Positions 506 to 46,757 of a stretch of DNA of 48,052 bases are shown piece after piece; positions within the stretch are counted from its first letter, which is position 1; each line of letters opens with the position of its first letter. The translations under genes and the position numbers were made by a program. The notes under the pieces were generated by a model, which was not told where the DNA came from, did no database searches, and saw only the letters and a list, made by a program, of their open reading frames with translations. Origin of the DNA: Candidatus Bathyarchaeota archaeon. GTDB taxonomy: Archaea > Thermoproteota > CALKCG01 > B24. Location: NCBI GenBank assembly GCA_021161255.1, contig JAGHAZ010000054.1, positions 1 to 48,052 on the forward strand, in the 5' to 3' direction.

Positions 506-2245
506 ATGACTCGGTTTGAAGAGCTTGTCGAAGCCGCCCTAGGTAAGAGACGGCTCACCCTTTTATTCAAGGACGTTAACCTGGTCAACGTATACACGGG
601 CGAGGTTTACAGGGCGGACGTGGGGGTTTTAGGCGATAGGGTGGCTTATGTCAGCGACCATAGCGGTCTAAAGGCTTCTGAAGTTGTCGATGGAAGTGGA
701 AGATATCTGATACCTGGGCTTATAGATTCACATCTCCACATCGAGAGCAGCATGGTTACGCCATGCCGGTTTGCAGAAGCCGTCCTACCCCGGGGCGTCA
801 CCACGGCTGTAGCAGACCCGCATGAGATAGCTAACGTGCTCGGCGTAAGAGGAGTCAAGGCTATGGTCGAGAACTCCAAGGGTCTACCGCTTAAACTATA
901 CTTCTGGGCTCCGACATGCGTCCCACCTTTACCTGGTTTCGAGACATCGGGGGCCGAGATAAGGGCTGAAGACGTCGCTGAGATGCTCGGCTGGGAAGGG
1001 GTCATAGGGTTAGGTGAGGTCATGGACTACCACGGCGTGTTGAACCTAGACCCGAGGATCGTGGACATAGTGAATGTAGGTCGGTCTTCAAGAGTTCTCA
1101 TCGACGGACATGCCCCCATGCTCAGGGGTAGGATGCTTAACGCATATGTATCGTCTGGGGTCGAGGCTGATCATGAAAACTTCGGCTTGGAAGAGGTCGT
1201 CGAGAAGGCGAGGCTGGGTCTATGGGTGGAGGTCCGTAGAAACCTTGCTGGGTCTAGAGAGTTCATAGAGACGCTCGCGAAGTCTGGGGTTTTATCAAGG
1301 CTTATATTGACCACAGATGATACCTCACCAGATTTGCTTGTGGAAAAGGGTCACCTAGACGAACTGGTCAGATCTGCCATTGCCAATGGACTAGACCCTA
1401 TCGAAGCCGTGCGGTCGGCTACTCTGAGACCTGCACAGCGACTAAGATTATACGACCGTGGTGGTTTAGCTCCAGGCAAACTGGCCGACATGATCCTCCT
1501 TAAAAGTCTAGAGAGATTCGAGGTCGATAGGGTTTACTCAGACGGTAGATTGGTGGCTAAAGAAGGTAGATTAGTCGCCGAGGTTCCTATAAGGAGTTTT
1601 CCGGATTGGGCTAAACGAACCGTTAAAGCACCCTCTCTGAGGGCTGAGGACTTCAGGGTTAAGGCTCCTATACCTGATGGATGGGTTTATGTGAACGTGA
1701 TAGTCGTTAGAGGGTTTGAAACCTTCCTAGCCGAAGCTAGGCTTCCGGTCGAGAATGGCTTCATAGAATCTTCTGAATACGTCTCAGCCGCTGTCATCGA
1801 GAGACACGGTAGAGGCGGGGGTTTCGCTAAGGCTTTCATCGACGGTCTAGGTATGGAAAAGGGTGCCGTGGCGTCGACCGTAGCCCACGATACGCATAAC
1901 ATCGTGGTCCTGGGTAAGTCTACGTCTGATATGGCGCTGGCTTATGAGACCCTACGGAGAAACCAGGGCGGCTATGTGGCGGTCTTAGAAGGTAGGGTTT
2001 TAGCCCTATTGAGGCTTCCGGTCGCGGGTCTTATGAGCGAAGAACCTGTCGAAGAGGTCTCTGAGAAGTTTAAAGCCTTCAGAAAAGCCGAGAAGACGCT
2101 TGGGCTATCTGAGGAAACACCTATACCTCTGATTAGCCTTCTGACACTTCCGGTCATACCGCACGTCAGAGTCACGGACAAGGGGTTATTCGACGTGGAT
2201 AAGGGGTCGTTTATACCGCTCGTTAAAAGGTTTGAGAAGCGCTGA
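506..2245 (+). CDS. ade: Adenine deaminase
   Basis: This 579-residue amidohydrolase converts adenine to hypoxanthine and ammonia in purine salvage, in the cytosol, with a binuclear metal site. The metal-binding motif GLIDSHLHIESS sits near residues 71-82, followed by the family-specific DPHEIANV. The C-terminal AdeC domain carries HDTHNIVVLG near residue 460. Length and domain order match AdeC-type adenine deaminases rather than adenosine deaminases. ATG start; no overlap with neighbours. It stands alone between a HAD hydrolase and the broken mch. Confidence 0.95.
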   Translation: MTRFEELVEAALGKRRLTLLFKDVNLVNVYTGEVYRADVGVLGDRVAYVSDHSGLKASEVVDGSGRYLIPGLIDSHLHIESSMVTPCRFAEAVLPRGVTTAVADPHEIANVLGVRGVKAMVENSKGLPLKLYFWAPTCVPPLPGFETSGAEIRAEDVAEMLGWEGVIGLGEVMDYHGVLNLDPRIVDIVNVGRSSRVLIDGHAPMLRGRMLNAYVSSGVEADHENFGLEEVVEKARLGLWVEVRRNLAGSREFIETLAKSGVLSRLILTTDDTSPDLLVEKGHLDELVRSAIANGLDPIEAVRSATLRPAQRLRLYDRGGLAPGKLADMILLKSLERFEVDRVYSDGRLVAKEGRLVAEVPIRSFPDWAKRTVKAPSLRAEDFRVKAPIPDGWVYVNVIVVRGFETFLAEARLPVENGFIESSEYVSAAVIERHGRGGGFAKAFIDGLGMEKGAVASTVAHDTHNIVVLGKSTSDMALAYETLRRNQGGYVAVLEGRVLALLRLPVAGLMSEEPVEEVSEKFKAFRKAEKTLGLSEETPIPLISLLTLPVIPHVRVTDKGLFDVDKGSFIPLVKRFEKR

Positions 2246-2333: not shown

Positions 2334-3288
2334 ATGTTCAGCGTGAATCAAGGTGCGTTTAAGATAGTTAAGGCGCTTATGTCCAATCCCGAATACTACG
2401 GTGTCAAAGTGGAGAAGGTCGAGGGCGGAGGTACGATAATAGACGCCGGTGTCAAAGTACGCGGGGGATACGAGGCCGGCCTGAGGATAACAGAAATCTG
2501 TATGGGAGGCCTAGGTAAGGCCTATTTAACTGTCTGACAATACGAGGATCTGCTTCTGCCGACGGTTGTCGTTTATAGCGATGAGCCTTGTGTAGCCACT
2601 TTAGGCGCTCAGTTCGCAGGCTGGAGGATAAAGGTTGGAGACTTCTTCGCGCTAGGCTCTGGGCCTGCCAGGGCGTTATCTCAGCAGCCTAAGGAGCTTT
2701 ATGCTAAGGTAGGTTACAAAGACGAGTCTGACGTAGCGGTTATAGTGTTCGAGACGGATAAATACCCCTCAGCCGACGTGTTCAAGTATGTAGCCGACAA
2801 ATGCGGCGTCGAGCCTAGTAGTGTCTACGCGGTTATAACCCCGACCTCAAGCATAGCCGGTTAGACCCAGATATCTGGCCGCATAGTCGAGACCGGTATC
2901 CACAAGCTCACGGAGCTAGGGTTCGACCCCAAGAAGATCGTCTACGGAGCAGGCTCCGCACCTATAGCCCCTATACACCCCAAGTTCGCTAGAGCTATGG
3001 GTAGGACGAACGACGTGATAATAGTATGCGGAGAGGTTTATCTCACCGTCGACTACGACGGGGAAGACCTGGAGCACTAATGTCAAAAAGGCACCGTCGT
3101 CTGAGTCTAAGATGTACGGTAAACCGTTCTTCCAGATATTCAAAGAAGCCGGGTACGACTTCTACAAGATCGACCCCGGAATATTCAGCCCAGCCTAGAT
3201 AACGGTCAATAACCTGAGAGACGGTAAGGTATACACAACCGGAAAGGTCGATGTGCCGCTTCTCAAGAAATCACTAGGCCTAGGTTAG
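2334..3288 (+). pseudogene. mch: Methenyltetrahydromethanopterin cyclohydrolase, disrupted
   Basis: Joined across frames, the translation follows Mch over its whole length (about 318 codons): MFSVNQGAFKIVKAL at the start, then [77 protein letters not shown] and FSPAQITVN near the end (with * for Q). Intact Mch converts methenyl-H4MPT to formyl-H4MPT in the archaeal C1 pathway. Here TGA at 2535-2537 and TAG at 2862-2864 interrupt the first frame. A +1 frameshift near 3075-3085, with TAA at 3078-3080, moves the rest to another frame, and TAG at 3196-3198 sits where the family has a Gln or Glu. The reading ends at TAG 3286-3288. All other conserved blocks are well preserved, so the decay looks recent. 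A TATA-like element (tttatacat) and a GGGAGG ribosome site still precede the ATG. Confidence 0.9.
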
Positions 3289-3341: not shown

Positions 3342-4343
3342 TCAATAATATAATAGTACGCCAAGAACCTTTTCTTTATGCTCTATCAGAATCTTGTAGG
3401 CATCTGGAGCCTTCTCAACCGGTAATTTGAGGCTTATGTAGTCCTTAACCCTCAATCTTCCCTCGGCCATGAGCTTCAGCACGAGTCTCTTATCGTCTAT
3501 ATCTGTCCAATAATGCGGTAAAGACTCGCAGCTCGGTCTGACGCTTGTATGAGCTCCTATGATGATCAATCCCTTCCTGTGAACAGGCATGTAGAAGTTC
3601 ACGGTCGACACCCCTCTAGGGCTTCCGAGAATGACGACTCTCCCGAGCCTCCCGGCCATATCGAGAGCCATCGGTATGGCCTTAGGATTCCCCGTCGCCT
3701 CGATGACCACGTCTGCCCCTTTTCCATCGGTCAAACGTCTAACCTCTTCGACAGCGTCGGTCTTAGAGGGGTTTACCACATGGTCTGCGCCGTGTTTAGC
3801 CGAAACTTCAAGCCTCCAGTCCACAAGGTCGACCGCTATCACGGGAAATCCACCGCTAAGCCTAGCTAGTTGAACGGCAAGCTGACCCACAAGACCTTGA
3901 CCCACCACCACTACGGAGTTTCCGAGCTCTATGAACCCCTTCCTTACACCCTGGAGAGCTATCGAAGCTAAGTTGAAGAAAGAGGCTTCCTCGGCCGATA
4001 AGCCGTCTGGAACCTTGAGGACGCTACTACATCGAGCTATAACATGGCTACTATGGGGCATCGGCGAAACCACGAGTTCTCCCGGTTTGAACCCTTCGAC
4101 GTTTTCACCGTTTTCCTTGACCACACCGACGTTCGAATAGCCCGGATACTGAGGGAACTTCTGAGACGTGTTAGGAAGCGCCATCAGGAAAGCCGTCTCG
4201 GTTCCCGGACTTATGAGACTACAAACGGTTTTAATCAGCAACTGATCTGCGCTCGGTTTAGGAACGTCGAACTCTTCTACATCCACAAGCCCCTTACTCC
4301 TGAAGACAACCCTCTTACCCTTCAAACCTAGCCACCTGCTCAA
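3342..4343 (-). CDS. Medium-chain dehydrogenase/reductase (zinc-type alcohol dehydrogenase family)
   Basis: A 333-residue MDR protein: N-terminal GroES-like domain (PGTETAFLMAL, then PGYSNVGVV), followed by a Rossmann domain with VVVGQGLVGQLAVQLARLSG as the nucleotide-binding loop near residues 145-165, and GADVVIEATGNPKAI. It should be an NAD(P)-dependent oxidoreductase of an alcohol, polyol or similar substrate. The classical GHE zinc motif is not evident, so it may use a modified metal site or none; it resembles the sorbitol dehydrogenase/BchC-like branch. Substrate unknown. Monocistronic on the minus strand. Confidence 0.8.
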   Translation of the reverse strand: MSRWLGLKGKRVVFRSKGLVDVEEFDVPKPSADQLLIKTVCSLISPGTETAFLMALPNTSQKFPQYPGYSNVGVVKENGENVEGFKPGELVVSPMPHSSHVIARCSSVLKVPDGLSAEEASFFNLASIALQGVRKGFIELGNSVVVVGQGLVGQLAVQLARLSGGFPVIAVDLVDWRLEVSAKHGADHVVNPSKTDAVEEVRRLTDGKGADVVIEATGNPKAIPMALDMAGRLGRVVILGSPRGVSTVNFYMPVHRKGLIIIGAHTSVRPSCESLPHYWTDIDDKRLVLKLMAEGRLRVKDYISLKLPVEKAPDAYKILIEHKEKVLGVLLYY

Positions 4344-4385
4344 ACGTATTTAGGAACGTGTTTAAAGCTTTCACCGACGCTTTTC

Positions 4386-5684
4386 TTAGGTCTCTGCGTA
4401 TCTCCTCAGAACTGTTCTATAGGCGAGTATACCCAGCAGGTATACGACCGTCGTCGCTGCCAAGACCTTAAACGTATCCGGTAACACCTCTGCTAACCCG
4501 GCTTCGAAAACCATTATCGATCTCATAGCATCTATGGCCCACGTAGCCGGGAATACATCTCCTAGAAACCTCATCCATTCAGGCATCCAGCTTTTAGGGA
4601 ACCATATACCCGCCGTGAAAGACAGCATCATACCGAGTACTGTGCTTAAACCAGACGCCCCCCTAGCGGTCTTGGTCACAAGCGAAAGGAGCATACCAAA
4701 TCCTATCATGAGAAGAGAACCCAGCACGAGAAGTATGGGAACGAACCAGTGTTCCGGTTTCAAGGGGTTCCACAGGATCTTCGCACCGCACCCAAATATA
4801 CCTACTATCACGGAAAGCCCGGTCGTAAGGCTTAGGATGAGGATTCCGGCTAAAGTCTTGCCTATGAGCATGTCCGTCGACGTGGCGGGGGAGGCTAGGA
4901 GTCTCTTAAGAGTCCCACGCTCCTTCTCGCTCACGGCCATCGTGCTTCCTATGCTCAAACCGGTGTATAATATACTCATACCAGCCGCGCCTAACGTATA
5001 CCAGCCTAGGATCGTACTCCTAGTCATGAGAGTCTCAGGTTTCACATCTACGAAGGTTGCGTTTATCGGCTCCATCAACCCGATCATCCAAACCTCTAGG
5101 AATTCCACCAGAGTCTCGTTGAACCCAGGTATCGTAAAGTTTTCAGGCATATACTGCGAGCCGTATTTCTTCATGTAGAAGAGTGTCTCGTTCACCTTCC
5201 TGTAGGCTATCTCCTTGCTCATACCGTCTATAAACCCTCTGAGTATCGCCTCGTTAATCTGAGCAGACTGAAGGTCGCTAGCTCCCACGTATATCTTAAG
5301 CGTAGCCTGCCCCATCATGAGCTTCGTACCAAAGCCTCTAGGTATGAGAAAACCACCATCGAGTCTTCCGGCTTTCAAATCGTCTATTATGGCAGACTCG
5401 TTCTCGTACTCGACCACGTCGAAGAGTTTAACGCCTTTATACTCTACCTCATCGAGTATTTGCACGAAATATAAGCCGTTAAAGGGGGCTGTTGACTTAT
5501 CATCATAGTTCACAACCCCTATCTTTAACGTCTTAGGCCGATCCACAGACGGGGGTATGAAGATATAACCGGTCATCAAGACTAGAACCATGGGCCAGAA
5601 AACGATCCAGAAGATTTGGTCCTTGCTCCTCAACGTCGTCTTGAGTTCTTTAACGGCAAACGCCTTAACAGCGCTCCACTTCAT
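4386..5684 (-). CDS. ABC-2 type transporter permease
   Basis: A 432-residue membrane protein with the ABC-2 exporter layout: a short cytoplasmic head, a first membrane helix near residues 24-46, a large external domain of about 190 residues, and five or six membrane helices from about 225 to the end. The cytoplasmic motif VSEKERGTLKRLLASPAT is typical of ABC-2 permeases. Its start overlaps the stop of the upstream ATPase gene by 4 bases, so the two are translationally coupled and form one exporter. Substrate (drug, lipid or polysaccharide) cannot be told. Confidence 0.9.
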   Translation of the reverse strand: MKWSAVKAFAVKELKTTLRSKDQIFWIVFWPMVLVLMTGYIFIPPSVDRPKTLKIGVVNYDDKSTAPFNGLYFVQILDEVEYKGVKLFDVVEYENESAIIDDLKAGRLDGGFLIPRGFGTKLMMGQATLKIYVGASDLQSAQINEAILRGFIDGMSKEIAYRKVNETLFYMKKYGSQYMPENFTIPGFNETLVEFLEVWMIGLMEPINATFVDVKPETLMTRSTILGWYTLGAAGMSILYTGLSIGSTMAVSEKERGTLKRLLASPATSTDMLIGKTLAGILILSLTTGLSVIVGIFGCGAKILWNPLKPEHWFVPILLVLGSLLMIGFGMLLSLVTKTARGASGLSTVLGMMLSFTAGIWFPKSWMPEWMRFLGDVFPATWAIDAMRSIMVFEAGLAEVLPDTFKVLAATTVVYLLGILAYRTVLRRYAET

Positions 5685-6643
5685 TCTTCGACCAGCCTCC
5701 TACCTGTCAACTTGAGAAACACGTCTTCAAGAGTCGGCGGGGAGATCCTCATAGCCAGCAGCTTATACCCGTTGTTTAGAAGCCTAGACACGAGCTTCGG
5801 GGCTACCATATCGGGGTCTTCCACATAGACCCTTAAGCTGTTTCCGTCGACGTAGACCGCTCCTTCATATGCGTAGGGCTCGACAAGCTTCAACGCTCCG
5901 CTGGCAGGCTCCATCAGCTCCAGGTTTATCACAGCCCTTAACCCGCACTCCCTCTTAAGCATGTCGGGCTCTCCCTCGGCTACGATCCTGCCCCTATCCA
6001 TTATCGCAACCCTATCCGATAAGACCTCAGCCTCCTCCATGTAATGCGTCGCAAGGATCACGGTCTTCCCCAGGCTTTTAAGCTCGTTTATCAAATCCCA
6101 TACGCTTCTCCTTATACCCGGGTCCATACCCGTGGTAGGCTCGTCTAGAAGCAGAACCTCAGGTTCCCCTATCAAAGCTATCGCGAAGTTCAGCCTCTTT
6201 TTCATACCTCCAGAGTATTTCCCCGCTCTCCTATTGGCGTGTTCAAGAAGTCCGAGCTTATCGAGAGGCTCTCGACACCTTTTCACCGCTTCGCTTCCAC
6301 TTAAACCATGTAACCCAGCGTAGAATGTGATGTTTTCAAACCCTGAGAGCTCATCATAGACGACCGGCTCCTGAGGGCAAAAACCGACAAGCCCCCTAGT
6401 CTTACTGTCTAGAGGGTTCATACCTAGGATTCTGACGGTCCCTGACGTAGGAGTAACGACGCCCGCTAATATACCCAAGAGCGTAGTCTTACCGGCCCCG
6501 TTGGGTCCCAGTAGACCATAGACTTCACCCCGTTTTACTTCGAAGCTCACGTTATCGACCGCGGCTCTATCTCCAAACCTTTTGGAGACGTTCCTGACGG
6601 ATACCGCAGGCTCCTGTGTAGAATAGCTTCTTGAAGAGCTCAT
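5681..6643 (-). CDS. ABC transporter ATP-binding protein
   Basis: A 320-residue ATPase that powers the permease encoded just downstream. It has the Walker A motif GPNGAGKTT near residues 46-54, the signature YSGGMKKR, Walker B VLLLDEPTTGMDP and the switch His in ATHYMEEAE. The C-terminal 90 residues form the extra domain found in DrrA/CcmA-like exporters. It is first in a two-gene operon; the 4-base overlap (5681-5684) with the permease shows coupling. Confidence 0.93.
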   Translation of the reverse strand: MSSSRSYSTQEPAVSVRNVSKRFGDRAAVDNVSFEVKRGEVYGLLGPNGAGKTTLLGILAGVVTPTSGTVRILGMNPLDSKTRGLVGFCPQEPVVYDELSGFENITFYAGLHGLSGSEAVKRCREPLDKLGLLEHANRRAGKYSGGMKKRLNFAIALIGEPEVLLLDEPTTGMDPGIRRSVWDLINELKSLGKTVILATHYMEEAEVLSDRVAIMDRGRIVAEGEPDMLKRECGLRAVINLELMEPASGALKLVEPYAYEGAVYVDGNSLRVYVEDPDMVAPKLVSRLLNNGYKLLAMRISPPTLEDVFLKLTGRRLVEE

Positions 6644-6769
6644 CGAATAGCCCCTACGTCTCTAGAATAGGGTTTCAAGGGTTAATAACATTTCAGAGAG
6701 GAGGTTTCATAGGTCCCGATGAGTCTCCTCTAGATACGCAAAGTTTAACAGTTTTCATCACGATATGAA

Positions 6770-7452
6770 ACCTATATAATCGACTCAGACGAGTCCAACA
6801 TATTCTTGCCCAAGCTTCTAGGTGTATCTCCTCCAAGACCCCTAGTCGAATACGTTGGAGGGAAAAGCCGAAGAAGAGGAATTCGAGAAGAGAGAGCCGG
6901 ATATAGCTAAAGCCTTAGCCAAAGCCGGTCAAGGGGGTGAAGCTGAGTCTCCTACCGGATGAATATATCTCCTATTCGGCTGAGGGTATAGGTTTGGTCA
7001 CGATAGGTAAGGTTAGGGAATACGGCGAAGGATGCGCCTGCCCATTCAATATTTTGACGAGAATACTTCTGAAGAACCTTGTTCTCGAAGAGTCGGAGAT
7101 GGTTCTAGTCGATACAGATGCAGGTATAGAACACGTCGGTCGGAGGGTCGAGGAAACTGTTGACGGTGTATTAGCGGTCGTAGATCCCACGGCTGAATCC
7201 CTCCGTTCAGCCCTTCTCCTGAGGGAGGTCGTCTCAAAACTGGATAAAGCCTTCTGGGTGGTAGCGAACAAGATAACACCTCGGACTTAGGCTTTGATCA
7301 GTAGAGAAGCTGAACATCTTGGGCTTAGGATAGATGGGGTCATAAGGTTTGACGACGACGTTTTCGAATCCACGCTCCTAGGTGAAAAGCTCAGATATAA
7401 AACCGCGTTAGAGGACGTAAGGTCCCTTGCTAAAACCCTGAAGCTACTCTAG
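6770..7452 (+). pseudogene. CooC-like (MinD-family) maturation ATPase, disrupted and 5'-truncated
   Basis: Three frames together read as one CooC-type protein: YIIDSDESNIFLPKLLG and RPLVEYVGGK (frame from 6773), then FEKREPDIAKALAKAGQG (frame from 6870), then VKLSLLPDEYISYSAEG, EYGEGCACPFN, VLVDTDAGIEHVGR and VVANK (frame from 6937). A TAG at 7288-7290 stops this frame, yet it continues with recognisable sequence to TAG 7450-7452. The N-terminal 30 or so residues with the P-loop (KGGVGKT) are missing. The family loads nickel into carbon monoxide dehydrogenase. Lesions: loss of the head, two +1 shifts and one nonsense codon. Its end overlaps the convergent hydrolase gene by 4 bases. Confidence 0.8.
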
Positions 7453-28747: not shown

Positions 28748-28788
28748 TTATTACAAGGACTGTCCGATACTGTCAGACGGTGAAGAAC

Positions 28789-29163
28789 TTGGCAGGATAC
28801 GGTCGCCGTAGGAGAACGCGTTGGTGGTGGTACATGATGCCTCCGATGCCTCCGCCTATGCCACCGGCGGCTACACAGCCCCCGGCTCAACAGCCTCAAC
28901 AGCAGCAGCCACAGGTCCAACAGCCTCAGCCTGGTTATCAGCAATATCCCTATCAGCAGTATCCATATCCATGGGCTTTCTATCCACCGCCGTTTTACGC
29001 GATGCCACCTCCATATCCGAGAACACCTCAGGAAGAGCTTCAGATGCTTGAGGAATACAAACGCGACTTAGAGGCCGACCTACAGGACCTACAAGAGGAG
29101 CTCAGAAGCGTCGAGGAACGTATAGCAGAGCTGAAGAAGGCCCTCGAGGAAGGGCAACCTTAA
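28789..29163 (+). CDS. Pro/Gln-rich small protein with C-terminal coiled coil (DUF5320-like)
   Basis: A 124-residue protein starting at TTG 28789. The head MAGYGRRRRTRWWWYMMPPM is basic and aromatic; residues 20-75 are Pro, Gln and Tyr-rich with QQ and PPY repeats; residues 80-120 form a charged coiled coil (EELQMLEEYKRDLEADLQDL). Aromatic Gly/Met-rich head plus C-terminal coil is the layout of archaeal DUF5320-type proteins that accompany NifX genes. Function unknown; the coil may mediate oligomerisation. The frame is open further upstream, but that part opposes the DUF134 gene and is left out. Confidence 0.7.
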   Translation: MAGYGRRRRTRWWWYMMPPMPPPMPPAATQPPAQQPQQQQPQVQQPQPGYQQYPYQQYPYPWAFYPPPFYAMPPPYPRTPQEELQMLEEYKRDLEADLQDLQEELRSVEERIAELKKALEEGQP

Positions 29164-29227
29164 ACCCCGTCTTTTTAAGCCCATACTCATGTGCGTAAGG
29201 TTTATATCCTCCGAGATAATTTTGAGA

Positions 29228-29240
29228 TATTGAACAAAAT
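29228..29240. promoter_or_regulatory. Candidate DUF134 binding site, copy 2
   Basis: TATTGAACAAAAT, identical to copy 1 in 12 of 13 positions. It also forms the right arm of an inverted repeat (ATTTTG at 29219-29224 with CAAAAT at 29235-29240). It overlaps the region between a TATA-like gtttatatcc (29200-29209) and the AGGAGGTGG ribosome site, where a repressor would block transcription. Confidence 0.45.
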
Positions 29241-29253
29241 AGGAGGTGGTTAA

Positions 29254-29538
29254 ATGGCCTGGTTTGGATGGGGTGGATGGGGTAGAGGAAGAGGCAGAGG
29301 AGGATGGTCTGGACCATGGCCTGGACGAGGGCCTTTCAGTTACCTACCTCCATGGCAGAGACCCGGCTGGCTATTCGGTAGAGGATCCTGCTGGTGGCTT
29401 CTCGGATACCCATGGGGCTACGGCTACGGGTTCTATCCACGCTTCTACGCACCGTACTATGCTCCATACATGGCTCCGTATGCGCCGTGGCTCTATAGAC
29501 CATACCTACCGTGGACGCCCTACACATATCCCTACTAG
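29254..29538 (+). CDS. Trp/Tyr/Gly/Pro-rich small protein
   Basis: A 94-residue low-complexity protein, about half Gly, Pro, Trp and Tyr. The first 30 residues hold GRGRGRGGWSGPWPGRG, an RG-rich patch; the rest is Tyr/Pro-rich (FYAPYYAPYMAPYAPWLYRP). There is one Cys. A very strong ribosome site (AGGAGGTGG) and the ATG spacing support that it is a real gene. No family known to me; composition resembles proteins that self-associate through Arg-aromatic contacts. Second gene of the cluster, 20 bases before the next. Confidence 0.7.
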   Translation: MAWFGWGGWGRGRGRGGWSGPWPGRGPFSYLPPWQRPGWLFGRGSCWWLLGYPWGYGYGFYPRFYAPYYAPYMAPYAPWLYRPYLPWTPYTYPY

Positions 29539-29557
29539 ACGCTAGGAGGTAGGGAGC

Positions 29558-29755
29558 ATGGCATACCCATACTACCCGTATTTCGGATATGGGTATCCGT
29601 GGATGTCCTTCGACCCGTTCACCGCCTTCTACTACTGGATAGGGATGATGTACTACCTCTACATGTTCAGGATATGGATGGACATCTGGGCTAAATTCGT
29701 AGAAATGATTCCGGGGATGTTCCCGACGGCCCCGACGGCTAAGCCCGCGGCGTAA
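29558..29755 (+). CDS. Tyr/Met-rich small protein, possibly membrane-associated
   Basis: A 65-residue protein with the head MAYPYYPYFGYGYPWMSFDP and an aromatic, hydrophobic stretch near residues 21-52 (FTAFYYWIGMMYYLYMFRIW) that could lie in or on a membrane. The end is Pro/Ala/Thr-rich. A good ribosome site (AGGAGGTAGGG) precedes the ATG. No homolog recognised. Its position between the two low-complexity genes and the NifX gene suggests a common complex. Confidence 0.7.
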   Translation: MAYPYYPYFGYGYPWMSFDPFTAFYYWIGMMYYLYMFRIWMDIWAKFVEMIPGMFPTAPTAKPAA

Positions 29756-29813
29756 GCATTTTTCTCCCAAATTTTTATTTTTAGCGATTGCTCTAATCCT
29801 TTGCTAGGAGGTG

Positions 29814-30302
29814 ATGTCCACGGGTTATCCACCTTACGGCGGAGGTTATGGACGTGGTAGAGGTAGAGGAGGCGGTTATGGCCAGGGAAGAGGTATGGGT
29901 AGGGGGATGGGTTTTGGGTCATTCCCTCAGCAGGCCTTAGAGCCTATTCCTCCTCCACCGCCTGGAGTATTGAGAGTTGCAGCGTCCACAGACGATGGAA
30001 ACGGGTTGAACGCTAGGATATCCTTCAGGTTCGCTAGGGCCCCTTTCCTAACGATAGTAGACTTAAGGGATGGTAAAGCCGTAGATAGCCGCTCCATCCA
30101 GAACCTCTTAACTGCAGGTGCTAGGGGCGTTGGAGTAGCGGTTGGACAGTGGTTGGTATCCTCAGGCGTTAGACTCGTGTTAGCCCCTCACTTAGGACCG
30201 AATATAATGATGGTTCTATCTCAGGCGGGCGTTAAGGTCGAGATGGTTCCACCCGGTGTAACTATTGAAGAAGCACTTAGAAGGCTTAGGTTAGTGTATT
30301 AG
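29814..30302 (+). CDS. NifX/NifB-domain protein with RG-rich N-terminus
   Basis: A 162-residue protein. Residues 1-40 are RG/GY-rich (GGGYGRGRGRGGGYGQGRGM), then a Pro-rich linker, then from about residue 50 a dinitrogenase Fe-Mo cofactor domain (VLRVAASTDDGNGLNARISF; ARAPFLTIVDL; LTAGARGVGVAVGQWLVSSG; GVKVEMVPPGVTIEEAL). Such domains carry Fe-S or Fe-Mo precursor clusters and occur in archaea without nitrogenase. The TATA-like atttttattttt is about 40 bases upstream, so it may have its own promoter. The AGGAGGTGAT ribosome site nearly touches the ATG; GTG 29811 is an alternative. Confidence 0.85.
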   Translation: MSTGYPPYGGGYGRGRGRGGGYGQGRGMGRGMGFGSFPQQALEPIPPPPPGVLRVAASTDDGNGLNARISFRFARAPFLTIVDLRDGKAVDSRSIQNLLTAGARGVGVAVGQWLVSSGVRLVLAPHLGPNIMMVLSQAGVKVEMVPPGVTIEEALRRLRLVY

Positions 30303-30304
30303 CC

Positions 30305-31192
30305 ATGGAGATCGTCGTAGCCAGCGGTAAGGGTGGTACAGGTAAAACGTTTGTAGCATCCAACCTATGCGTGTACTTAAAAAGGAACTTAAGCGAAGAA
30401 GTTGTGGCGGTAGATGCCGACGTCGAGGCTCCTGATCTTTTAATGGCTTTAGGAGGCTCTACGAGGGAGGTCGTTCGTGAGGAGTTCTACGGCTCATACA
30501 TGCCTACGATAGACATGTCTATATGCTTCAACTGTGGGCGGTGCGCCGAGGCCTGCGAGTTTAACGCGATACATATGGCTCCTGAAGGCCCAGTCATAGA
30601 CTATTCCAAATGTGAAGGGTTAGGGACATGCGCCGTCGTATGCTCTGTTAAAGCCATAACCCTCGTCGAGGATAAGACGGGTGACATCTATGCCTCTGAG
30701 ACCCCCTTCGGGATCACGGTTGTAACCGGAGACTTGGAGCTTGGTAAAGGTAACAGCGGTAGGCTTGTCTATGATCTTAAGGAGCGGGCATACCGGATAG
30801 CGTCTGAAAAGGGTGTAGAATTCAGGGTCGTAGACGCCGCGCCGGGTATAGGTTGTCCTGTCGTCTCTAGTATAGCGGGCTCAGACCTCCTTATAACGGT
30901 CGTAGAGCCCACTCCTCAGTCTCTGAAGGGCTCCCTCAGGCTTCTAGAGGTCGCTGAAACCCTAGGCATCAAGACTGTTGCGATAATAAACAAGTATAAC
31001 TTAAACCCAGACTTCACCGCTGAGGTCGAGAAGAAGCTTGGAGTCGAAGTCTTAGGATACGTGCCCTATGACGATGCGGTGGTCGAAGCCTATACGTCTG
31101 CTGTACCTCTCCTAGAGTATTCTCCGGCCTCAAAGGCCTCGGAAGCGTTGGTCAAGTGCTTCGATAGGTTTAGAGAAGGGTGGTTTAGGTGA
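30305..31192 (+). CDS. MinD-type P-loop ATPase with inserted ferredoxin domain, first copy
   Basis: A 295-residue protein of the COG1149 group. The deviant Walker A ASGKGGTGKTFVASNL is at residues 5-20 and the switch region DAAPGIGCPVVSS near residue 179. A 2[4Fe-4S] insert lies near residues 75-120: the first motif CFNCGRCAEAC is complete, but the second reads CEGLGTCAVVC, with Leu in place of the second Cys. So the second cluster may be missing or altered. Such ATPases act as Fe-S carriers or assembly factors. The start is 2 bases after the NifX stop; it overlaps the next gene by 4 bases. Confidence 0.9.
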   Translation: MEIVVASGKGGTGKTFVASNLCVYLKRNLSEEVVAVDADVEAPDLLMALGGSTREVVREEFYGSYMPTIDMSICFNCGRCAEACEFNAIHMAPEGPVIDYSKCEGLGTCAVVCSVKAITLVEDKTGDIYASETPFGITVVTGDLELGKGNSGRLVYDLKERAYRIASEKGVEFRVVDAAPGIGCPVVSSIAGSDLLITVVEPTPQSLKGSLRLLEVAETLGIKTVAIINKYNLNPDFTAEVEKKLGVEVLGYVPYDDAVVEAYTSAVPLLEYSPASKASEALVKCFDRFREGWFR

Positions 31193-32079
31193 CTGTACTA
31201 ACGGTTACAGGCGGTAAGGGTGGTACTGGTAAAACGGTAGTGGCCGTCAACTTGGCTTTAGCCTTAAGCTCTTTGACGGGTGAACGCGTGCTCCTAGTAG
31301 ACCTCGATGTGGATAACCCCTGTACGTATACTCTACTAAACGTCGAACCTAAAACCGTAGAGGAGGTTAAGTCGTTTAAACCGGTTATAGACAAGGACGC
31401 GTGCGTCAGATGTGGTACATGCGTAAAATACTGTCCGACTCATGCGCTCTTCTTGATACCTAACGCAGGTTTATCGTTCATAGAGACTCTTTGTGAAGGC
31501 TGTGCGATGTGCATGTATGTATGCCCTAAGGAGGCTATAAGCCGTGGTCACTGTTTAACAGGCTGGGTTAAGGAGGCTGATGCAGGAGACCTGCATCTAG
31601 TCTTAGGCGAACTCAGACCGGGCGACCGTAAATACCATGACGTTATGGAGGCCACTTTAAACTACGCCAAAAGGATCTGGGGAAACTACAGGATTGTAGT
31701 GATAGATACTCCCCCTGGAACCGGTAAGGGTATTCTCATGGCTTTGAACAGCTCAGACGTCATAGTAGCCGTTACGGAACCTACCAGTCTAGGTCTCTTA
31801 GACCTCAAGAGGCTTAATAGGCTCGTTACCCCCTTGGGTAAACCTGAGATAGTGGTCGTCAACAAGTATGGACTACCTGGCGGGGCTCATAATAAGCTTG
31901 AACGGTACCTACAGGAGTGCGGTCTCAGGTGGGCTAAAATACGTTACGATAAGCGGTTGATGAGCGCTTATATTCGAGGAAAGCCTGTCATATGCTACGA
32001 CCCAAACGCCCCGTCTGCCTTAGATATCCAGGCTTTAGCGAAGATGCTGACGAAGGAGATGGGTCTAAATCGAAGCTGA
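31189..32079 (+). CDS. MinD-type P-loop ATPase with inserted ferredoxin domain, second copy
   Basis: A 296-residue paralog of the preceding protein. Walker A is TGGKGGTGKTVVAVNL near residue 6 and the switch motif is VIDTPPGTGKGIL near residue 170. Both ferredoxin motifs are complete: CVRCGTCVKYCP and CEGCAMCMYVCP. The GTG start overlaps the upstream stop (GTGA), so the two are made together and probably form a heterodimer. Expected role: ATP-dependent Fe-S or metal cluster transfer to the NifX-like partner. Confidence 0.9.
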   Translation: MTVLTVTGGKGGTGKTVVAVNLALALSSLTGERVLLVDLDVDNPCTYTLLNVEPKTVEEVKSFKPVIDKDACVRCGTCVKYCPTHALFLIPNAGLSFIETLCEGCAMCMYVCPKEAISRGHCLTGWVKEADAGDLHLVLGELRPGDRKYHDVMEATLNYAKRIWGNYRIVVIDTPPGTGKGILMALNSSDVIVAVTEPTSLGLLDLKRLNRLVTPLGKPEIVVVNKYGLPGGAHNKLERYLQECGLRWAKIRYDKRLMSAYIRGKPVICYDPNAPSALDIQALAKMLTKEMGLNRS

Positions 32080-32088
32080 GCTGATGGG

Positions 32089-33345
32089 ATGATAGACCGA
32101 CGCCTCAGAATCGAAGAGGGTGAGAAAGCGGCTAAGGTGGCCTTGACCATAGACGGTTTGTTAAGTCTTTTGAAGATAACGGTAGGTGTCTTCTCCGGTA
32201 TCACTATGTTGACCGCCGACGGGTTACATGGGCTGGCGGATTCCGTGACATCGATAGCTACGTGGCTTGGATTGTTTCTCTCGAAGAGGAAACCCACGGG
32301 TAGGTTTCCCTACGGCTACTATAAGGCTGAGAACCTAGCGTCCCTACTTGTATCTACGTTCATACTCTATACGTCCTATGAGGTTCTGCTCGACGGTTTC
32401 GAAACGTTTTTCAAGCCCGAGCCCATATCTATGCCCTTCGAAGCTACCATAGTGGCGTCGTTTTCGGCTCTAATCTCTTCTCTCCTATTTCTGTATCTCA
32501 AAAAGGTCGCCTCGAGAATAGGCTCTCAGTCGATATCGGCCATAGCCAAGGAGAAGATGATCGACGTTTTGTTTGCGGTCTCTGTGGTCATAGGAATTTT
32601 ACTCGTAGTTTATACCAAGATGTTTTACGTCGAAGGAGTCCTCACCACGGCGATATCGATTCCAGTCTTCTACACAGGTCTTCTGATAATGAGGGATGCG
32701 GTCTACGCTCTGATGGACGTTAGCCCTAGTAAAACGGTCGAGGAGAAAGTTATGCAAGCGATAGGATCTGTGGAAGGTGTTATAGGATTCAGAGACCTTA
32801 AGCTTCGTAAGTCGGGCTCCTTCCTATTCGGCGAGGTTGTTATAAAGGTTAAACCGGGTCTAAGCGTCGAGAAGGCGCATGAAGTAGCCGATAAGCTTGA
32901 GAAGGCTATAAAAAGTAAGGTTGAGGAGCTTGAATACATAACCATCCACATCGAACCCACGGAGAAACCCGTACAAAAGGTGGCGATTCCCATAGAACAC
33001 TACATAGGGCTAGACTCTAGACCGGCTGAACGATTCGGTAGGTCTAAGAATATACTCATAGCAACCGTCAGCCTAGAGGATAAGGAAGTTATGAATTTAA
33101 CGGTCGTTAAAAACCCTCACAGTCAGAATAGAGTCCGGGCAGGTTTGAAGACGGCTAAGCTTTTGCTTAAACACGGCGTGGATGCTGTAGTAACTAGCGA
33201 GATAGGTGAGATCGCTTATCATACGCTGAGGGACGGATTGGTCTTGATCTATCTACTCGAGGGTTCTACGGTAAAAGAGGTCCTAGATAGATTCATGGAT
33301 AAAAAACTCATGGTTCTTGAGAGGCCCACTAGAGAGGTGGCTTAG
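32089..33345 (+). CDS. CDF metal transporter fused to a NifX-like domain
   Basis: A 418-residue fusion. Residues 1-205 are a cation diffusion facilitator with about six membrane helices; the metal site shows as ADGLHGLADSVTS near residue 44 (two of the Asp/His ligands). Residues 210-295 are the cytoplasmic CDF domain (VEGVIGFRDLKLRKSG; HIEPTEKP). Residues 300-410 are a NifX/NifB-type domain (VAIPIEHYIGLDSRPAERFG; LTVVKNPHSQNRVRAG; LLKHGVDAVVTSEIGE). CDF proteins export Zn, Fe or Mn. The fusion and its position after the Fe-S ATPases link metal export to cluster handling. Confidence 0.92.
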   Translation: MIDRRLRIEEGEKAAKVALTIDGLLSLLKITVGVFSGITMLTADGLHGLADSVTSIATWLGLFLSKRKPTGRFPYGYYKAENLASLLVSTFILYTSYEVLLDGFETFFKPEPISMPFEATIVASFSALISSLLFLYLKKVASRIGSQSISAIAKEKMIDVLFAVSVVIGILLVVYTKMFYVEGVLTTAISIPVFYTGLLIMRDAVYALMDVSPSKTVEEKVMQAIGSVEGVIGFRDLKLRKSGSFLFGEVVIKVKPGLSVEKAHEVADKLEKAIKSKVEELEYITIHIEPTEKPVQKVAIPIEHYIGLDSRPAERFGRSKNILIATVSLEDKEVMNLTVVKNPHSQNRVRAGLKTAKLLLKHGVDAVVTSEIGEIAYHTLRDGLVLIYLLEGSTVKEVLDRFMDKKLMVLERPTREVA

Positions 33346-33349
33346 GGGC

Positions 33350-34012
33350 ATGGGTTCGGGTAGAAAGAGAAGCTTCGAGGTGTTCGACAAGTACGCCGAC
33401 CGCTACGACTCTTGGTATACGCGTCATAGAATAACCGCTGAGAACGAGGCTATGTGTCTGAAAAGCCTCGGGCTCCGTGGTTTAGGCATTGACATCGGCG
33501 CAGGCTCGGGTTTCTTCACAAAGACCGTAGGCGCTATAGCCTTAGAGCCTTCACGTCGGATGCTCTGTAAGGCTAAAGAGAAAGGTCTGGAATCGATCAG
33601 GGGGGTGTCTGAATACATACCGGTTAGATCCAACATCTTGGACTACGCAGTTATGGTAGTAACGTTGTGTTTCTTGGAAGACCCTATGAAGGCCCTACGG
33701 GAGACGTGGAGGATTTTGAAAAACGGAGGAGTCTTAGCGTTATGCATAGTCCCTAGGGATTCTACGTGGGGCCGATTCTACGAGTCGAGAAAAGCCGAAA
33801 GCCCCTTCTACAGGATGGCTAAGTTCTACACGGTCGAGGAGGTCATCGGTATGCTTAGGGATACGGGTTTCAAGGTCGAGTCGATCAGGGCGACGTTATC
33901 CTATGGTCCCTTGGACGAAGCTAGGGTCGAAACCCCCGTAGAGGTTTACTCAGACCGAAGCTTCGTCTGTATATCGGCTCGTAAGGTTGTCTCAGGTGTA
34001 GCATCCGCTTAG
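33350..34012 (+). CDS. SAM-dependent methyltransferase, class I
   Basis: A 220-residue protein. The SAM loop LGIDIGAGSGFFTK is near residue 47, the acidic second motif is replaced by ALEPSRRML, and EYIPVRSNILDYAVMVVTLC follows, typical of type 11 (UbiE-like) methyltransferases. The substrate is unknown. It starts at ATG 33350, 4 bases after the CDF stop, so it may belong to the same transcript. Its end overlaps the convergent isomerase gene by 4 bases. Confidence 0.88.
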   Translation: MGSGRKRSFEVFDKYADRYDSWYTRHRITAENEAMCLKSLGLRGLGIDIGAGSGFFTKTVGAIALEPSRRMLCKAKEKGLESIRGVSEYIPVRSNILDYAVMVVTLCFLEDPMKALRETWRILKNGGVLALCIVPRDSTWGRFYESRKAESPFYRMAKFYTVEEVIGMLRDTGFKVESIRATLSYGPLDEARVETPVEVYSDRSFVCISARKVVSGVASA

Positions 34013-34815
34013 GCGAGCTTCCGGGCCTTCTCGAGGCTGAACTTTAGATAGTCCCGGTCTTTTGAGAACACCTCTAGGGTTACGGTTTCGTCGTATCCAT
34101 AGTTCCTTAAGAGTTTAAACACCTTAGCCCAATCTATCCGTCCAGCCCCTAGCGGTAGATGTAGGTCCCAGCCTTTGGTCGCAGAACCCCCGACGTTATC
34201 GGATACGTGGACATGTATCAGCTTAGACCCTGGCGTGAAGGTTTTCAAAAACTCTTCGACTCTAAGCCTTTCAGAGTTTAGGTTTGCATGACCAACGTCT
34301 AAGTGGAAATACGCCTCTCCCTCCTCGACGATGAACTTATACTCTTCTAAGCTCCATATTTTCCCTCCGTCTAGGTTTTCGACCATTACTACGGCTCCGA
34401 GGTCTGAGGCTCTACGGCTTAAGACTTTGAACGAAGATGCCATAAGCTCTAGAAGCTTTGTCCTATAGGGTTGTCTACGGTATGCGCTTGAAATCATCAA
34501 GAAGGGATGATATGTAACCTTATATGCTCCAACCTTGGCTAGGACCTCTAACGCTTTCAAAGCCTCCTCTAGATACGCTCTACGTATGGAATCGTATGGA
34601 TGGGCTAGCTGAAGGAACCAAGCCGTATGCCCGACCACGTCCAAGCTGTAGGACGATAGGGTATCCTTAACTTCGCCAACCCGCTTCTCTATGTCCTCGG
34701 GTAAGGCCTTGGGCCCTTCAACCGTGAAGTCTACGTAGTCAAAACCCATTTCTCCTATGAATTTAATTTCCTCTACGAAGTCCCTCGAAGGATGATTCAT
34801 CGCTCCAAATTTCAT
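34009..34815 (-). CDS. Sugar phosphate isomerase/epimerase-like TIM-barrel protein
   Basis: A 268-residue AP-endonuclease-family-2-type barrel. Metal ligands typical of the fold can be seen: His in VGHTAWFLQLAHP and TYHPF, Glu in VMVENLDGG near residue 146, Asp/His in YFHLDVGHANLN, His in HVHVSDN and Glu in VTLEVFSKD. Members include xylose isomerase-like and endonuclease IV-like enzymes; this short form is usually an epimerase or isomerase of unknown substrate. ATG start, single gene. Confidence 0.85.
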   Translation of the reverse strand: MKFGAMNHPSRDFVEEIKFIGEMGFDYVDFTVEGPKALPEDIEKRVGEVKDTLSSYSLDVVGHTAWFLQLAHPYDSIRRAYLEEALKALEVLAKVGAYKVTYHPFLMISSAYRRQPYRTKLLELMASSFKVLSRRASDLGAVVMVENLDGGKIWSLEEYKFIVEEGEAYFHLDVGHANLNSERLRVEEFLKTFTPGSKLIHVHVSDNVGGSATKGWDLHLPLGAGRIDWAKVFKLLRNYGYDETVTLEVFSKDRDYLKFSLEKARKLA

Positions 34816-34877
34816 AAACTTGAGAGCGTACGTCTAAGATGCAGATAAGTCTTACCCTTTCTATGAACTTCGTGTAG

Positions 34878-35376
34878 ATGAAGATAAGAGTGCGAAGGGT
34901 AGAGGTCGACGCGTCTAAATGTAGACGTTGCGGCTTCTGTAGAAGCGTTTCGATTTGTCATAGTCCTACGGAGTGCGTGGGTTGCTTGGCATGCTATCTG
35001 GTATGCCCCTATGAGGCGAGGTATGTTACATACCTAACGAAGGATGTTGAATGCATAAACATAGGCGTCGAGCCTAAGGCCGTTAACGTCGAGACCTACA
35101 TGCGTATAACGGGCTTCCGGTAGGGAGCAGGTCGCTAGGTATCTTGAAACCTCATGAAGGGGGTGGAGTATATCTACGATAAATACCGAGATAGGGTCTA
35201 CCTAGGTGTCGGTTTAGTCTACAACTTTCAGAAGACGAGACTTGAAAAGACCTTCAGTCTCCGAGATGCTACGGGTTAAGAGAGTTTTAGAAGACCAAGG
35301 TTTAAAATGCGTGATCGTTCAAACGAGCATAGGTCACATAGGCCCAGGAGATCAAAACCTTAGAGACTTTATGTAG
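34878..35376 (+). pseudogene. Ferredoxin-headed radical SAM protein, collapsed by an internal deletion
   Basis: The first frame (34878-35123) holds a Cys-rich head (CRRCGFCRSVSIC, then CVGCLACYLVCPYEAR) and runs directly into PKAVNVETYMRITGFR. From my knowledge of this archaeal radical SAM family, the latter lies near the C-terminus, after the CxxxCxxC core, which is absent here. After stops, a second piece (YIYDKYRDRVYLGVGLVYNF, from about 35155) and, after a +1 shift, a third (MLRVKRVLEDQGLKCVIVQT, then SIGHIGPG, to TAG 35374-35376) continue the family's end. So the middle part, probably 250 or more codons, is deleted and the rest has stops and a shift. The last 25 bases overlap the uracil-DNA glycosylase gene. 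Confidence 0.65.
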
Positions 35377-35948
35377 TCTCCAAGCTTTCTCCAGTCATTT
35401 TCTAGGATTATCCGCATAGACGGGTTGTAGAGGGCTGAAGCCGGATGATACATCACCGCTAAGTCGAAGTCTAACGTCAAGCTTCTTACTCTGTAGAATT
35501 TCCCGTGCAACCTACCCATGGAGCTGTATGGAAGTTTGAACTTGGACAGTAGGTATTTAGCCGCTACGGAGCCTAAAGCCACTATAAGCTTGGGTTTTAT
35601 AAGCTCGATCTGTCTGTCCAGATAGGGTGTACAAGCCTCTATCTGCTCCTCCGTGGCCTTGTTATCCGGGAGATAGCATTTAACCACGTTTGTGATGTAT
35701 ATCCCGCTCCTATCGAGGCCTGCAAGCTCGAGAAGATGGTTAAGGAACTTTCCAGCGGCTCCCACGAACGGTCTACCTTGAAGGTTTTCATGGTAGCCGG
35801 GTCCTAAACCCACGAGCATGATCTTCGCGTCGAGAGGCCCCTCCCCTACGACCGGATACCTCCGCGTCTTCCATAGCTCGCATTTTCTACAGTTCTCGAC
35901 TTCAGATACCAACTTTTTATACGTCGCGACCTTATCCATGAGGCTCAC
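35352..35948 (-). CDS. Uracil-DNA glycosylase, Fe-S type (family 4-like)
   Basis: A 198-residue enzyme that removes uracil from DNA. The four cluster Cys appear at CRKC near residues 19-22 and, further on, in VKCYLP and EACTPYL. The substrate pocket reads GRPFVGAAGKFLNHLLELAG. Motif A is GLGPGYHEN rather than the usual GEAPG-x-x-ED, so the catalytic acid is changed; motif B is YHPASAL. A related family or altered specificity is possible. ATG start. Confidence 0.88.
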   Translation of the reverse strand: MSLMDKVATYKKLVSEVENCRKCELWKTRRYPVVGEGPLDAKIMLVGLGPGYHENLQGRPFVGAAGKFLNHLLELAGLDRSGIYITNVVKCYLPDNKATEEQIEACTPYLDRQIELIKPKLIVALGSVAAKYLLSKFKLPYSSMGRLHGKFYRVRSLTLDFDLAVMYHPASALYNPSMRIILENDWRKLGDYIKSLRF

Positions 35949-36048
35949 GTTTAGAATACACCTGCGGTTTCTGAAAAACCTTAATCATAACAATGTGAGA
36001 TAATGTTTAATTCTGGTTTTTAGATTCACCTAAAATCGGTGTAGGCTC

Positions 36049-36612
36049 GTGGTCGAGGTCTTATGTCTCTACGGGAGCCCCAGGGTTGGTGGCAATACCG
36101 AGGCTCTTGTACGCCATATAGCCCGTTTATTCGAAGACCGTGGGTTTGACGTAACGGTCATAAACCTATGTAGTTTAGACATCAAGTTCTGTAGGTCTTG
36201 TAGGCGATGCATTGAAACCGGTTATTGTTCTCTAGAAGATGATCTCTCAAGAACGGTTTTTCCCAAGCTGTTATCCTCGAAAGCTCTAGTCTTAGCGTCT
36301 CCAGTATACTTTAACAACGTATCGTCTTGCGTCAAAGTGTTCATGGATCGGACTTGGAGCTTGAGAGGTCGGCTTAAAAACGTCGTAGGCGGAGCAGTGG
36401 TCGTCGGTAGAGGTTATGGAGCCGAGCTCGCTATAGCGGCGATACATTCGTTCATGCTCAAACACGATATGATCCTATGTTTCAGAGGGGTCACAGGGTT
36501 CGCATATGAAAGAGGCGAGATCTTACGAGACAAGGAGGCGTTTAAAAACGCTAATAAGCTTGTGGATAGAATGAGCGAGGTCTTGATGAAACTCGATGGA
36601 CGAGGAGTATAG
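36049..36612 (+). CDS. Iron-sulfur flavoprotein (NADPH-dependent FMN reductase family)
   Basis: A 187-residue protein with the FMN phosphate loop YGSPRVGGNTEAL near residue 8 and the compact Cys motif CRSCRRCIETGYC near residues 48-60, which holds a [4Fe-4S] cluster in archaeal iron-sulfur flavoproteins. ASPVYFNNVSSCVKVFMDR is the second flavin-binding block. These proteins carry electrons from ferredoxin to small acceptors, including oxygen species. GTG start. No linked partner. Confidence 0.9.
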   Translation: MVEVLCLYGSPRVGGNTEALVRHIARLFEDRGFDVTVINLCSLDIKFCRSCRRCIETGYCSLEDDLSRTVFPKLLSSKALVLASPVYFNNVSSCVKVFMDRTWSLRGRLKNVVGGAVVVGRGYGAELAIAAIHSFMLKHDMILCFRGVTGFAYERGEILRDKEAFKNANKLVDRMSEVLMKLDGRGV

Positions 36613-36661
36613 GGGCAATCGTTTTATGGTTCTTTTAAAGAGCTATTGTTAGGCGGTTTAG

Positions 36662-37483
36662 TTGAAGCGGTTTAGGGCGAACTATCATGTCCACACTTTC
36701 ATGAGCGACGGCTCCTCTGAGCCCGTAAAATACTTGGAGAAAGCCGTCGAGAGCGGTCTCACCGAGATAGGATTCACAGACCACTTGATAATCCTCGACG
36801 ACGGTCGGGTCGGCCCAGGCTCTTTAGACCCAGAGAAGTTAGACGAATATATCGACGCGATACGGGACGCCGCGAGCCTATTCAAGCCCCTATCGGTCAA
36901 ATGTGGTTTGGAAGTCGACTACACACCAGGCGGTATCAGACGCGTCGAGGAGATACTCGCCTCCTACCGGCACAGCTTGGACTACACGCTTATAGGGGTT
37001 CACATAGTCGACGGCTTCGAGTTCGACATCCCCGAATCGATCCCGATATGGAGAAGCCTAAGCCAAGAACAGGTCGACAAGGTCTACCGTAGATACTACC
37101 AACTCCTATTAGACGGTGTTAGAACAGGGTTATTCGACGTAGTGGCGCACTTAGATATCGTAAAGAGATTCGGCTTTAAACCGTCGAGAAGCTTCCTCGA
37201 CCTCATAGAACCCATACTACTCTCTGTTAAAACGTTGAGGATGGCCGTAGAGGTGAGCTCGGCGGGTCTAAGGCATCCTGTAAATGAACTATATCCATCG
37301 GAGGAGATAGTAACGCTCATGTCCGAGTTACGGGTACCCGTGACCTCGTCGACGGATGCACATAAACCAGAAGACATCTCCACGGGGTTAGAAGCCGTAG
37401 TAGAGCTGATAAAATCTAAGAGACTTCCCTTCGCAGTACCCGGCGGAGGTCTCAAAGTATTCGATTCTTTAAAGGTTCTGTAA
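36662..37483 (+). CDS. PHP-domain phosphatase (histidinol-phosphatase-like)
   Basis: A 273-residue PHP phosphoesterase. The metal-binding motifs are NYHVHTFMSDGS near residue 7, GFTDHLI near residue 37, GLEVDYTPG near residue 80, GVHIVDG, VVAHLDIVKRFG near residue 157 and SSTDAHKPED near residue 238. These match HisK-type histidinol-phosphatases, though other phosphate esters are possible because no his genes are nearby. TTG start. The end faces the kinase gene with 9 bases between. Confidence 0.88.
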   Translation: MKRFRANYHVHTFMSDGSSEPVKYLEKAVESGLTEIGFTDHLIILDDGRVGPGSLDPEKLDEYIDAIRDAASLFKPLSVKCGLEVDYTPGGIRRVEEILASYRHSLDYTLIGVHIVDGFEFDIPESIPIWRSLSQEQVDKVYRRYYQLLLDGVRTGLFDVVAHLDIVKRFGFKPSRSFLDLIEPILLSVKTLRMAVEVSSAGLRHPVNELYPSEEIVTLMSELRVPVTSSTDAHKPEDISTGLEAVVELIKSKRLPFAVPGGGLKVFDSLKVL

Positions 37484-37492
37484 GCGGCTTGC

Positions 37493-38479
37493 CTACCTGC
37501 TAAGTTCTTCAAGGCCTCTCCTAAGTTTCTCCACCCTACTTCGGATGTCTCTGAGGTTAAGCCTTCTGAAACAGATTACGGCTGAGCCTATGACGGGCTG
37601 GTAGCCTATGAGGGGTTTTTCGAACCTTGCTCTCTTAAGCTTACGTTCGAGACGGCTGTAGAAGCTATCTCGGAGGATCCGGGATTTAAAGACACTTCCG
37701 ACGGCTCCGACGACTATAGGCTCCTCGACCATATCCAGCTTCGAGGCCACGGCGTAGCAGGCCGAGGCAAGCTCGGCTCCCCCTCTGTCTAAGATGTCTA
37801 TAGCCACCTCATCACCGGCTTCTGCAACCTCGTCTACTAGGACGGCTAACTCGGCGATCCTAGTGGAGTCTCCCTCCATAACCCTGTAGACGATCTCCAT
37901 AAGGTCTATAGGCTCTACTAACTCGAAACGTTCCATAAATGCCTCAAGGAGTTTAGTCCTCACCCCCCTGCCGTCGCACGCCTTAGCAGCCGCCTGAAGA
38001 GCCTCCCTGGCTATCCAGTATCCGCTTCCCTCGTCTCCGAAAACCCATCCCCAACCCCCCGCCCTAGCCCTCTCACCTCTACTGTTCATACCGAAGGCTA
38101 TACTACCGGTTCCGGCTATGACGGCAACCCCGGGGTCGCCATAGGTTACGGCGTAATAGGCCGTGACTGCGTCGTGTTCGACCACTACGTCGGCCGTAGA
38201 CGGTATCGGAAGGCTCTTGACGATGGACCAGGCTCTCTCAAGGTCCTTTCTAGTGTCTATATCGGCCAAGCCTATGGAGAATACCTTTACTGAATTCACA
38301 GTAAGACCGGCTCTAGATAGCGCGTCTATTATAGAGTTCCAAACGTTTCTCTTCACCAGGTCTGAAGCCAATAGCACTCCGCTTGGACCTGTAGAAGCCG
38401 TAGATAAGAGTTCACCGTCTTCGTCGAATACTATGCACGTCGTCTTCGTCTTACCACCGTCTACAGCTATCAGGACCAT
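37493..38479 (-). CDS. BadF/BcrA-type ASKHA kinase (N-acetylglucosamine kinase-like)
   Basis: A 328-residue actin-fold ATPase. Phosphate loop 1 reads IAVDGGKTKTTC near residue 4, and phosphate loop 2 VAVIAGTGSIAFGMN near residue 119, followed by GGWGWVFGDEGSGYWIA, the motif typical of N-acetylglucosamine kinases. No CxxC for Fe-S binding, so it is not a benzoyl-CoA reductase activator. The likely reaction is phosphorylation of an amino sugar. ATG start; divergent from the acetamidase gene across a 115-base promoter region. Confidence 0.88.
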   Translation of the reverse strand: MVLIAVDGGKTKTTCIVFDEDGELLSTASTGPSGVLLASDLVKRNVWNSIIDALSRAGLTVNSVKVFSIGLADIDTRKDLERAWSIVKSLPIPSTADVVVEHDAVTAYYAVTYGDPGVAVIAGTGSIAFGMNSRGERARAGGWGWVFGDEGSGYWIAREALQAAAKACDGRGVRTKLLEAFMERFELVEPIDLMEIVYRVMEGDSTRIAELAVLVDEVAEAGDEVAIDILDRGGAELASACYAVASKLDMVEEPIVVGAVGSVFKSRILRDSFYSRLERKLKRARFEKPLIGYQPVIGSAVICFRRLNLRDIRSRVEKLRRGLEELSR

Positions 38480-38594
38480 CCTTCCACGGTCAGAAATAGC
38501 AAAGAGGTATATTCTAAACGTTACTCACATCAGAGAGATGAACAACCATATATGAGATCACCTCGACTTTACCGATCCTATAGAGGGATAAAAG

Positions 38595-39962: not shown

Positions 39963-39978
39963 ACGGGCTTAACCGGTC

Positions 39979-41427: not shown

Positions 41428-41469
41428 CAGACGATAAGAAGACCTAAACAAGCTAATAGGGTTAGCGGT

Positions 41470-42933: not shown

Positions 42934-42935
42934 GG

Positions 42936-43229: not shown

Positions 43230-43239
43230 CCCATCCCCC

Positions 43240-44562: not shown

Positions 44563-44659
44563 CGCTCTACCCCATATGCTACGTGTTTAGAATGTAGATG
44601 GAGTAACCTAATGTAAAGGTTTTCCTAGAAAATAAAAAAGAATGGAGTTTAGTAGGAGG

Positions 44660-45010: not shown

Positions 45011-45043
45011 TTCAACAGCGTAAGATGCTGGTAACACCTATCC

Positions 45044-46123: not shown

Positions 46124-46133
46124 CTCGCTTAAC

Positions 46134-46694: not shown

Positions 46695-46757
46695 AGTTTT
46701 TTAAGCTACGAAACCTTTAAGACCTTAACTCGTCGATTTAAGCCTTAAGGTGGTGTT

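Follow-up and report, generated by a model that had tools for sequence, protein, structure and literature searches.

The window, i.e., the whole 48,052-nucleotide stretch of DNA analyzed here, carries near its start a full-length but interrupted gene for methenyl-H4MPT cyclohydrolase (mch), followed 3.5 kb downstream by a second pseudogene of the CooC-like ATPase type. Its features are as follows, with the mch lesions and natural stop placed by alignment to the orthologous mch of Ca. Bathyarchaeota B24 (see below):

506..2245, forward strand: adenine deaminase, intact (reads through); neighbor and control
2334..3288, forward strand: mch pseudogene (methenyl-H4MPT cyclohydrolase, TIGR03120/PF02289), full length, interrupted; identified by PF02289 matches and the B24 alignment
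2535..2537, forward strand: nonsense codon TGA at mch codon 68
2862..2864, forward strand: nonsense codon TAG at mch codon 177
3078..3080, forward strand: TAA created by a one-base insertion at ~3079 (frameshift) in mch
3196..3198, forward strand: nonsense codon TAG, in the shifted frame, at mch codon 288
3286..3288, forward strand: natural stop TAG of mch
3342..6643, reverse strand: zinc-dependent dehydrogenase and ABC-2 transporter pair, intact (read through), between the two pseudogenes; controls
6752..7452, forward strand: CooC-like ATPase pseudogene (CODH nickel-insertion accessory type); tblastn of the B24 orthologue, matches in three frames
34878..35360, forward strand: remnant of a radical-SAM/ferredoxin-domain gene (408 aa in full), mostly deleted; comparison with the B24 orthologue and its domains

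The genome to which the window belongs (G000) is a metagenome-assembled genome of 1.67 Mb in 85 contigs, estimated to be 95.6% complete, and the losses described below are read from this one assembly. It was compared with its seven nearest relatives (G001-G007), of which the closest is Ca. Bathyarchaeota B24 (G001, LUCB01), a member of the same genus. B24 is colinear with G000, with 92-94% nucleotide identity in the blocks flanking the lost cdh cluster, but differs from it in possessing complete Fwd, Ftr, Mch, Mtd, Mer and CdhA-E, the identities of which were verified against NCBIfam. The GTDB order B24 (Bifangarchaeales) is found mostly in geothermal systems, according to a review (PMC12694404).

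The mch pseudogene matches PF02289 in two frames, at 2340-3089 (E 4.8e-96) and 3064-3273 (E 4.5e-23), which together cover positions 1-310 of the model, indicating full-length homology to Mch; the internal TGA, TAG, TAA and TAG all fall within the matching stretch. Over its length it shows 91.2% nucleotide identity to its 954-bp B24 counterpart, which is intact and whose product matches TIGR03120 at 429 bits. The gene is open in all seven relatives, the G004 copy being truncated by a contig end, and the three nonsense codons and the insertion are absent from these orthologues. The original prediction had described a full-length mch at 2334-3288 broken by these lesions, and both its coordinates and its lesion list are borne out by the two-frame match and the B24 alignment; the comparison with sister genomes that it proposed shows intact copies there. 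It had also named a second, intact mch as an observation that would speak against it; a whole-genome PF02289 search of G000 recovered only the single locus at 2340-3273 of the window.

The second pseudogene has lost its start codon and P-loop and carries +1 shifts at ~6855 and ~6933 as well as a TAG at 7288-7290. Its intact B24 orthologue has the CODH accessory protein CooC (3KJE, E 5e-17) as its best PDB match, and the translation of the gene contains a GCACP (C-x-C) motif. The radical-SAM/ferredoxin remnant farther along the window may be decaying along with the pathway to which mch belongs, and is an as yet unproven candidate for a function linked to it.

Beyond the window, the losses extend to further genes of the archaeal Wood-Ljungdahl pathway. 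CdhA was absent from G000 in a whole-genome search, and is likewise absent from the more distant G007; it is open in G001, G002, G004, G005 and G006, while in G003 contig ends divide it into two open pieces. CdhB, CdhC, CdhD, CdhE, FwdB, Ftr and Mtd were likewise not recovered from G000 with a composite query built from B24 proteins. A ~14-kb deletion in contig C55 has removed the counterpart of B24's cdhA-E cluster. In B24 this cluster additionally holds a second CdhD/CdhE-like pair and two cooC genes, together with a ferredoxin, an aldehyde:ferredoxin oxidoreductase-like gene and a toxin-antitoxin-like pair, these last three named by sequence only. What is left of the region in G000 amounts to 66 bp of the cluster and the 3' terminus of a radical-SAM gene. 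As the site lies within C55 and its flanks are colinear with B24, at the identity given above, this is a deletion rather than an assembly gap; further, because a stump remains and the relatives possess the genes, the direction of the change is a loss in G000.

Of the fwdDBAC operon, in turn, only fragments survive, spread over contigs C44 and C51: residues 36-88 of fwdD, residues 140-204 or 240-314 of fwdA in two separate fragments, and pieces of fwdC, with fwdB gone entirely; the relatives' copies of fwdA are intact. The ends of the deletions in G000 fall at short imperfect repeats. The end of C44 (L038:1-106) and C51 (L037:235-340) are identical over 106 bp of fwdC but have different deletions upstream, which would fit either a population carrying two broken fwd alleles or a partial repeat. 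The situation for ftr and mtd is less decisive: Ftr was also absent in its own whole-genome search of G000, but the ftr/mtd site of B24 lies exactly between the end of C39 (end of L177) and the start of C67 (start of L178), and since it thus falls in a contig gap the absence of ftr and mtd is not proven. The contig break at this site resembles the one inside fwd.

These losses may be set against the general state of the genome. A full-length, stop-free match in G000 was found for 132 of the 242 B24 ORFs in the stretches examined, and most of the unmatched ORFs fall outside the compared blocks. Within the syntenic blocks, six of seven pathway genes have been inactivated or lost (mch, the CooC-like gene, fwdD, fwdB, fwdA and fwdC, the seventh being the intact mer), as against three of 134 other genes (Fisher p 6e-8, a count which leaves out the single cdh deletion event). 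The denominator is approximate, as the ORF set holds some spurious reading frames. This bias toward one pathway speaks against random decay. Of the three other genes, two are of the radical-SAM type and one is a DUF655 gene. A radical-SAM gene other than the remnant in the window (457 aa in B24; L139:2380-3216 of C44) is disrupted by a stop and by three deletions, of 2, 34 and 51 bp, while the DUF655 gene (L139:9804-10368 of C44) has a 2-bp deletion near codon 38, either a sequencing error or another loss. Several further neighbors that had at first appeared broken proved on alignment to be spurious ORFs or to have very late stops or in-frame changes.

This concentration bears on the possibility that sequencing or assembly errors merely make an intact mch look broken. 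The fragmented metagenomic assembly lends it some credence, and the separate DUF655 deletion could indeed be an error of this kind. However, four lesions lie in mch while about 130 neighboring ORFs read through, the lesions cluster in the genes of one pathway, the large deletions are bridged inside contigs, and the insertion in mch lies outside any homopolymer. Hence, we regard error as a very improbable explanation. Slightly more improbable still is the proposal that only the methyl branch has been lost from the bin, with cdh, ftr and mtd residing in unassembled parts of the genome or elsewhere: the incomplete assembly and the contig gap at the ftr/mtd site leave some room for it, but the cdh site is spanned by one contig that lacks the cluster, and the whole-genome search retrieved none of CdhA-E. 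Finally, production of Mch via recoding, i.e., stop readthrough or pyrrolysine together with frameshifting, can be rejected as having a negligible probability, for while two of the lesions are TAG and the gene is otherwise well conserved, three different stop codons (TGA, TAG and TAA) and a frameshift would all have to be bypassed, mch itself terminates naturally at a TAG, and the enzymes on either side of Mch in the pathway survive as fragments or not at all, such that a rescued Mch would be left without its pathway.

Substitution patterns offer a view of the timing of the loss. Between G000 and B24, mch has a dN of 0.018, a dS of 0.38 and a dN/dS of 0.048, placing it at the 22nd percentile of the genome; the medians for 117 intact genes are a dS of 0.38 and a dN/dS of 0.095. 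With its low dN/dS and its dS at the median, mch was constrained in the ordinary way during most of the period after the two genomes diverged, and its loss is therefore recent. Polarized against the outgroups G002 and G003, the differences on the G000 branch number 13 silent and nine changing (one of them nonsense), and those on the B24 branch 17 silent and three changing; the surplus of changing differences in G000 is a trend only (p 0.09).

Not all of C1 metabolism has been affected. Mer is retained in an open frame with 97% identity to B24 (TIGR03555, 458 bits) and a dN/dS of 0.056 between the two genomes, indicating that it is under constraint. Serine hydroxymethyltransferase (GlyA), the F420 gene cofE and the NiFe hydrogenase large subunits are likewise intact. 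Beta-RFAP synthase (TIGR00144), a marker for H4MPT biosynthesis, fell below the cut-off in all eight genomes and is uninformative. The original prediction had taken the broken mch as a recent loss in an archaeon losing C1 metabolism, and had suggested looking to the rest of the pathway. Its view of mch decay as part of a wider pathway loss gains support from fwd and cdh, missing or in fragments here and intact in B24 along with the unrecovered ftr and mtd, and its recency agrees with the dN/dS of mch. What has been lost, though, judging by gene content, is the reduction of CO2 to acetyl-CoA, and "C1 metabolism" is a slightly too broad term for it given the intact Mer, GlyA and cofE.

Taken together, it is very probable that this bathyarchaeial lineage has recently lost the archaeal Wood-Ljungdahl pathway almost completely and would now be a heterotroph rather than a CO2-reducing acetogen, with Mer presumably kept for biosynthesis. 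Under this scenario, selection on the reduction of CO2 to methyl-H4MPT and on acetyl-CoA formation would have been relaxed in the G000 lineage, and the pathway genes would then have been lost one by one through point mutation and through deletions ending at short imperfect repeats. Mer could have been spared as GlyA would supply methylene-H4MPT from serine, the reduction of which to methyl-H4MPT would serve the synthesis of methionine and related compounds; such an anabolic role is likely by analogy. The former CO2 reducer or acetogen would thereby, most likely, have become a heterotroph drawing its methyl groups from serine, as far as gene content can tell.

The Wood-Ljungdahl pathway is an ancient CO2-fixing pathway, and its loss in archaea is a known phenomenon, inferred for many lineages, usually from presence and absence alone. 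Against this background, G000 is a new case of a familiar type of event, resolved in unusual detail, with the process of decay itself visible in the comparison of a same-genus relative holding every gene with a genome in which these are point-mutated, fragmented or cleanly deleted. It hence offers a testable order and mechanism of decay and points to Mer as the retained step. In gut Methanosarcinales the pathway has similarly broken down, with Mch absent, CdhA and CdhB lost and Mer kept, the last being explained by anabolic need (PMC11362671). Those, however, are intestinal methanogens in which the loss has been completed clade-wide, whereas G000 belongs to the Bathyarchaeia, in a geothermal-linked order, and has decaying copies still visible beside an intact relative of the same genus. 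Within the Bathyarchaeia, termite-gut members (Bathy-6, TB1) have lost CO2 reduction to the methyl level at least twice (PMC7886697), but the enzyme absent there is Mer, which G000 retains; its own losses are in fwd, mch and cdh. Among hot-spring Bathyarchaeia, cdh/acs has been reported from every family covered by one survey (PMC8407382). A Ferroglobus paper that mentions both Mch and pseudogenes has no bearing on this case. The present case cautions that a full pathway in a bathyarchaeial genus does not mean that each of its species fixes CO2 or makes acetate by it.

There are also hints of DNA exchange. The dS from B24 is ~0.3-1.1 at 4392-28336 of the window and mostly 0.01-0.3 at 28780-47428, and the adenine deaminase next to mch (506-2242) has a value of 0.058; the pattern is suggestive of recent recombination between the two species. 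It is conceivable, if rather unlikely, that the loss is still segregating, with different broken fwd alleles coexisting and DNA being exchanged with B24-like relatives; were this so, regaining the pathway would be possible in principle. A chloride-channel-like gene on C44 (L038:5565-6884) occupies the place of its B24 counterpart with only 41% identity, amid neighbors at 85-99%, and is a putative gene replacement.
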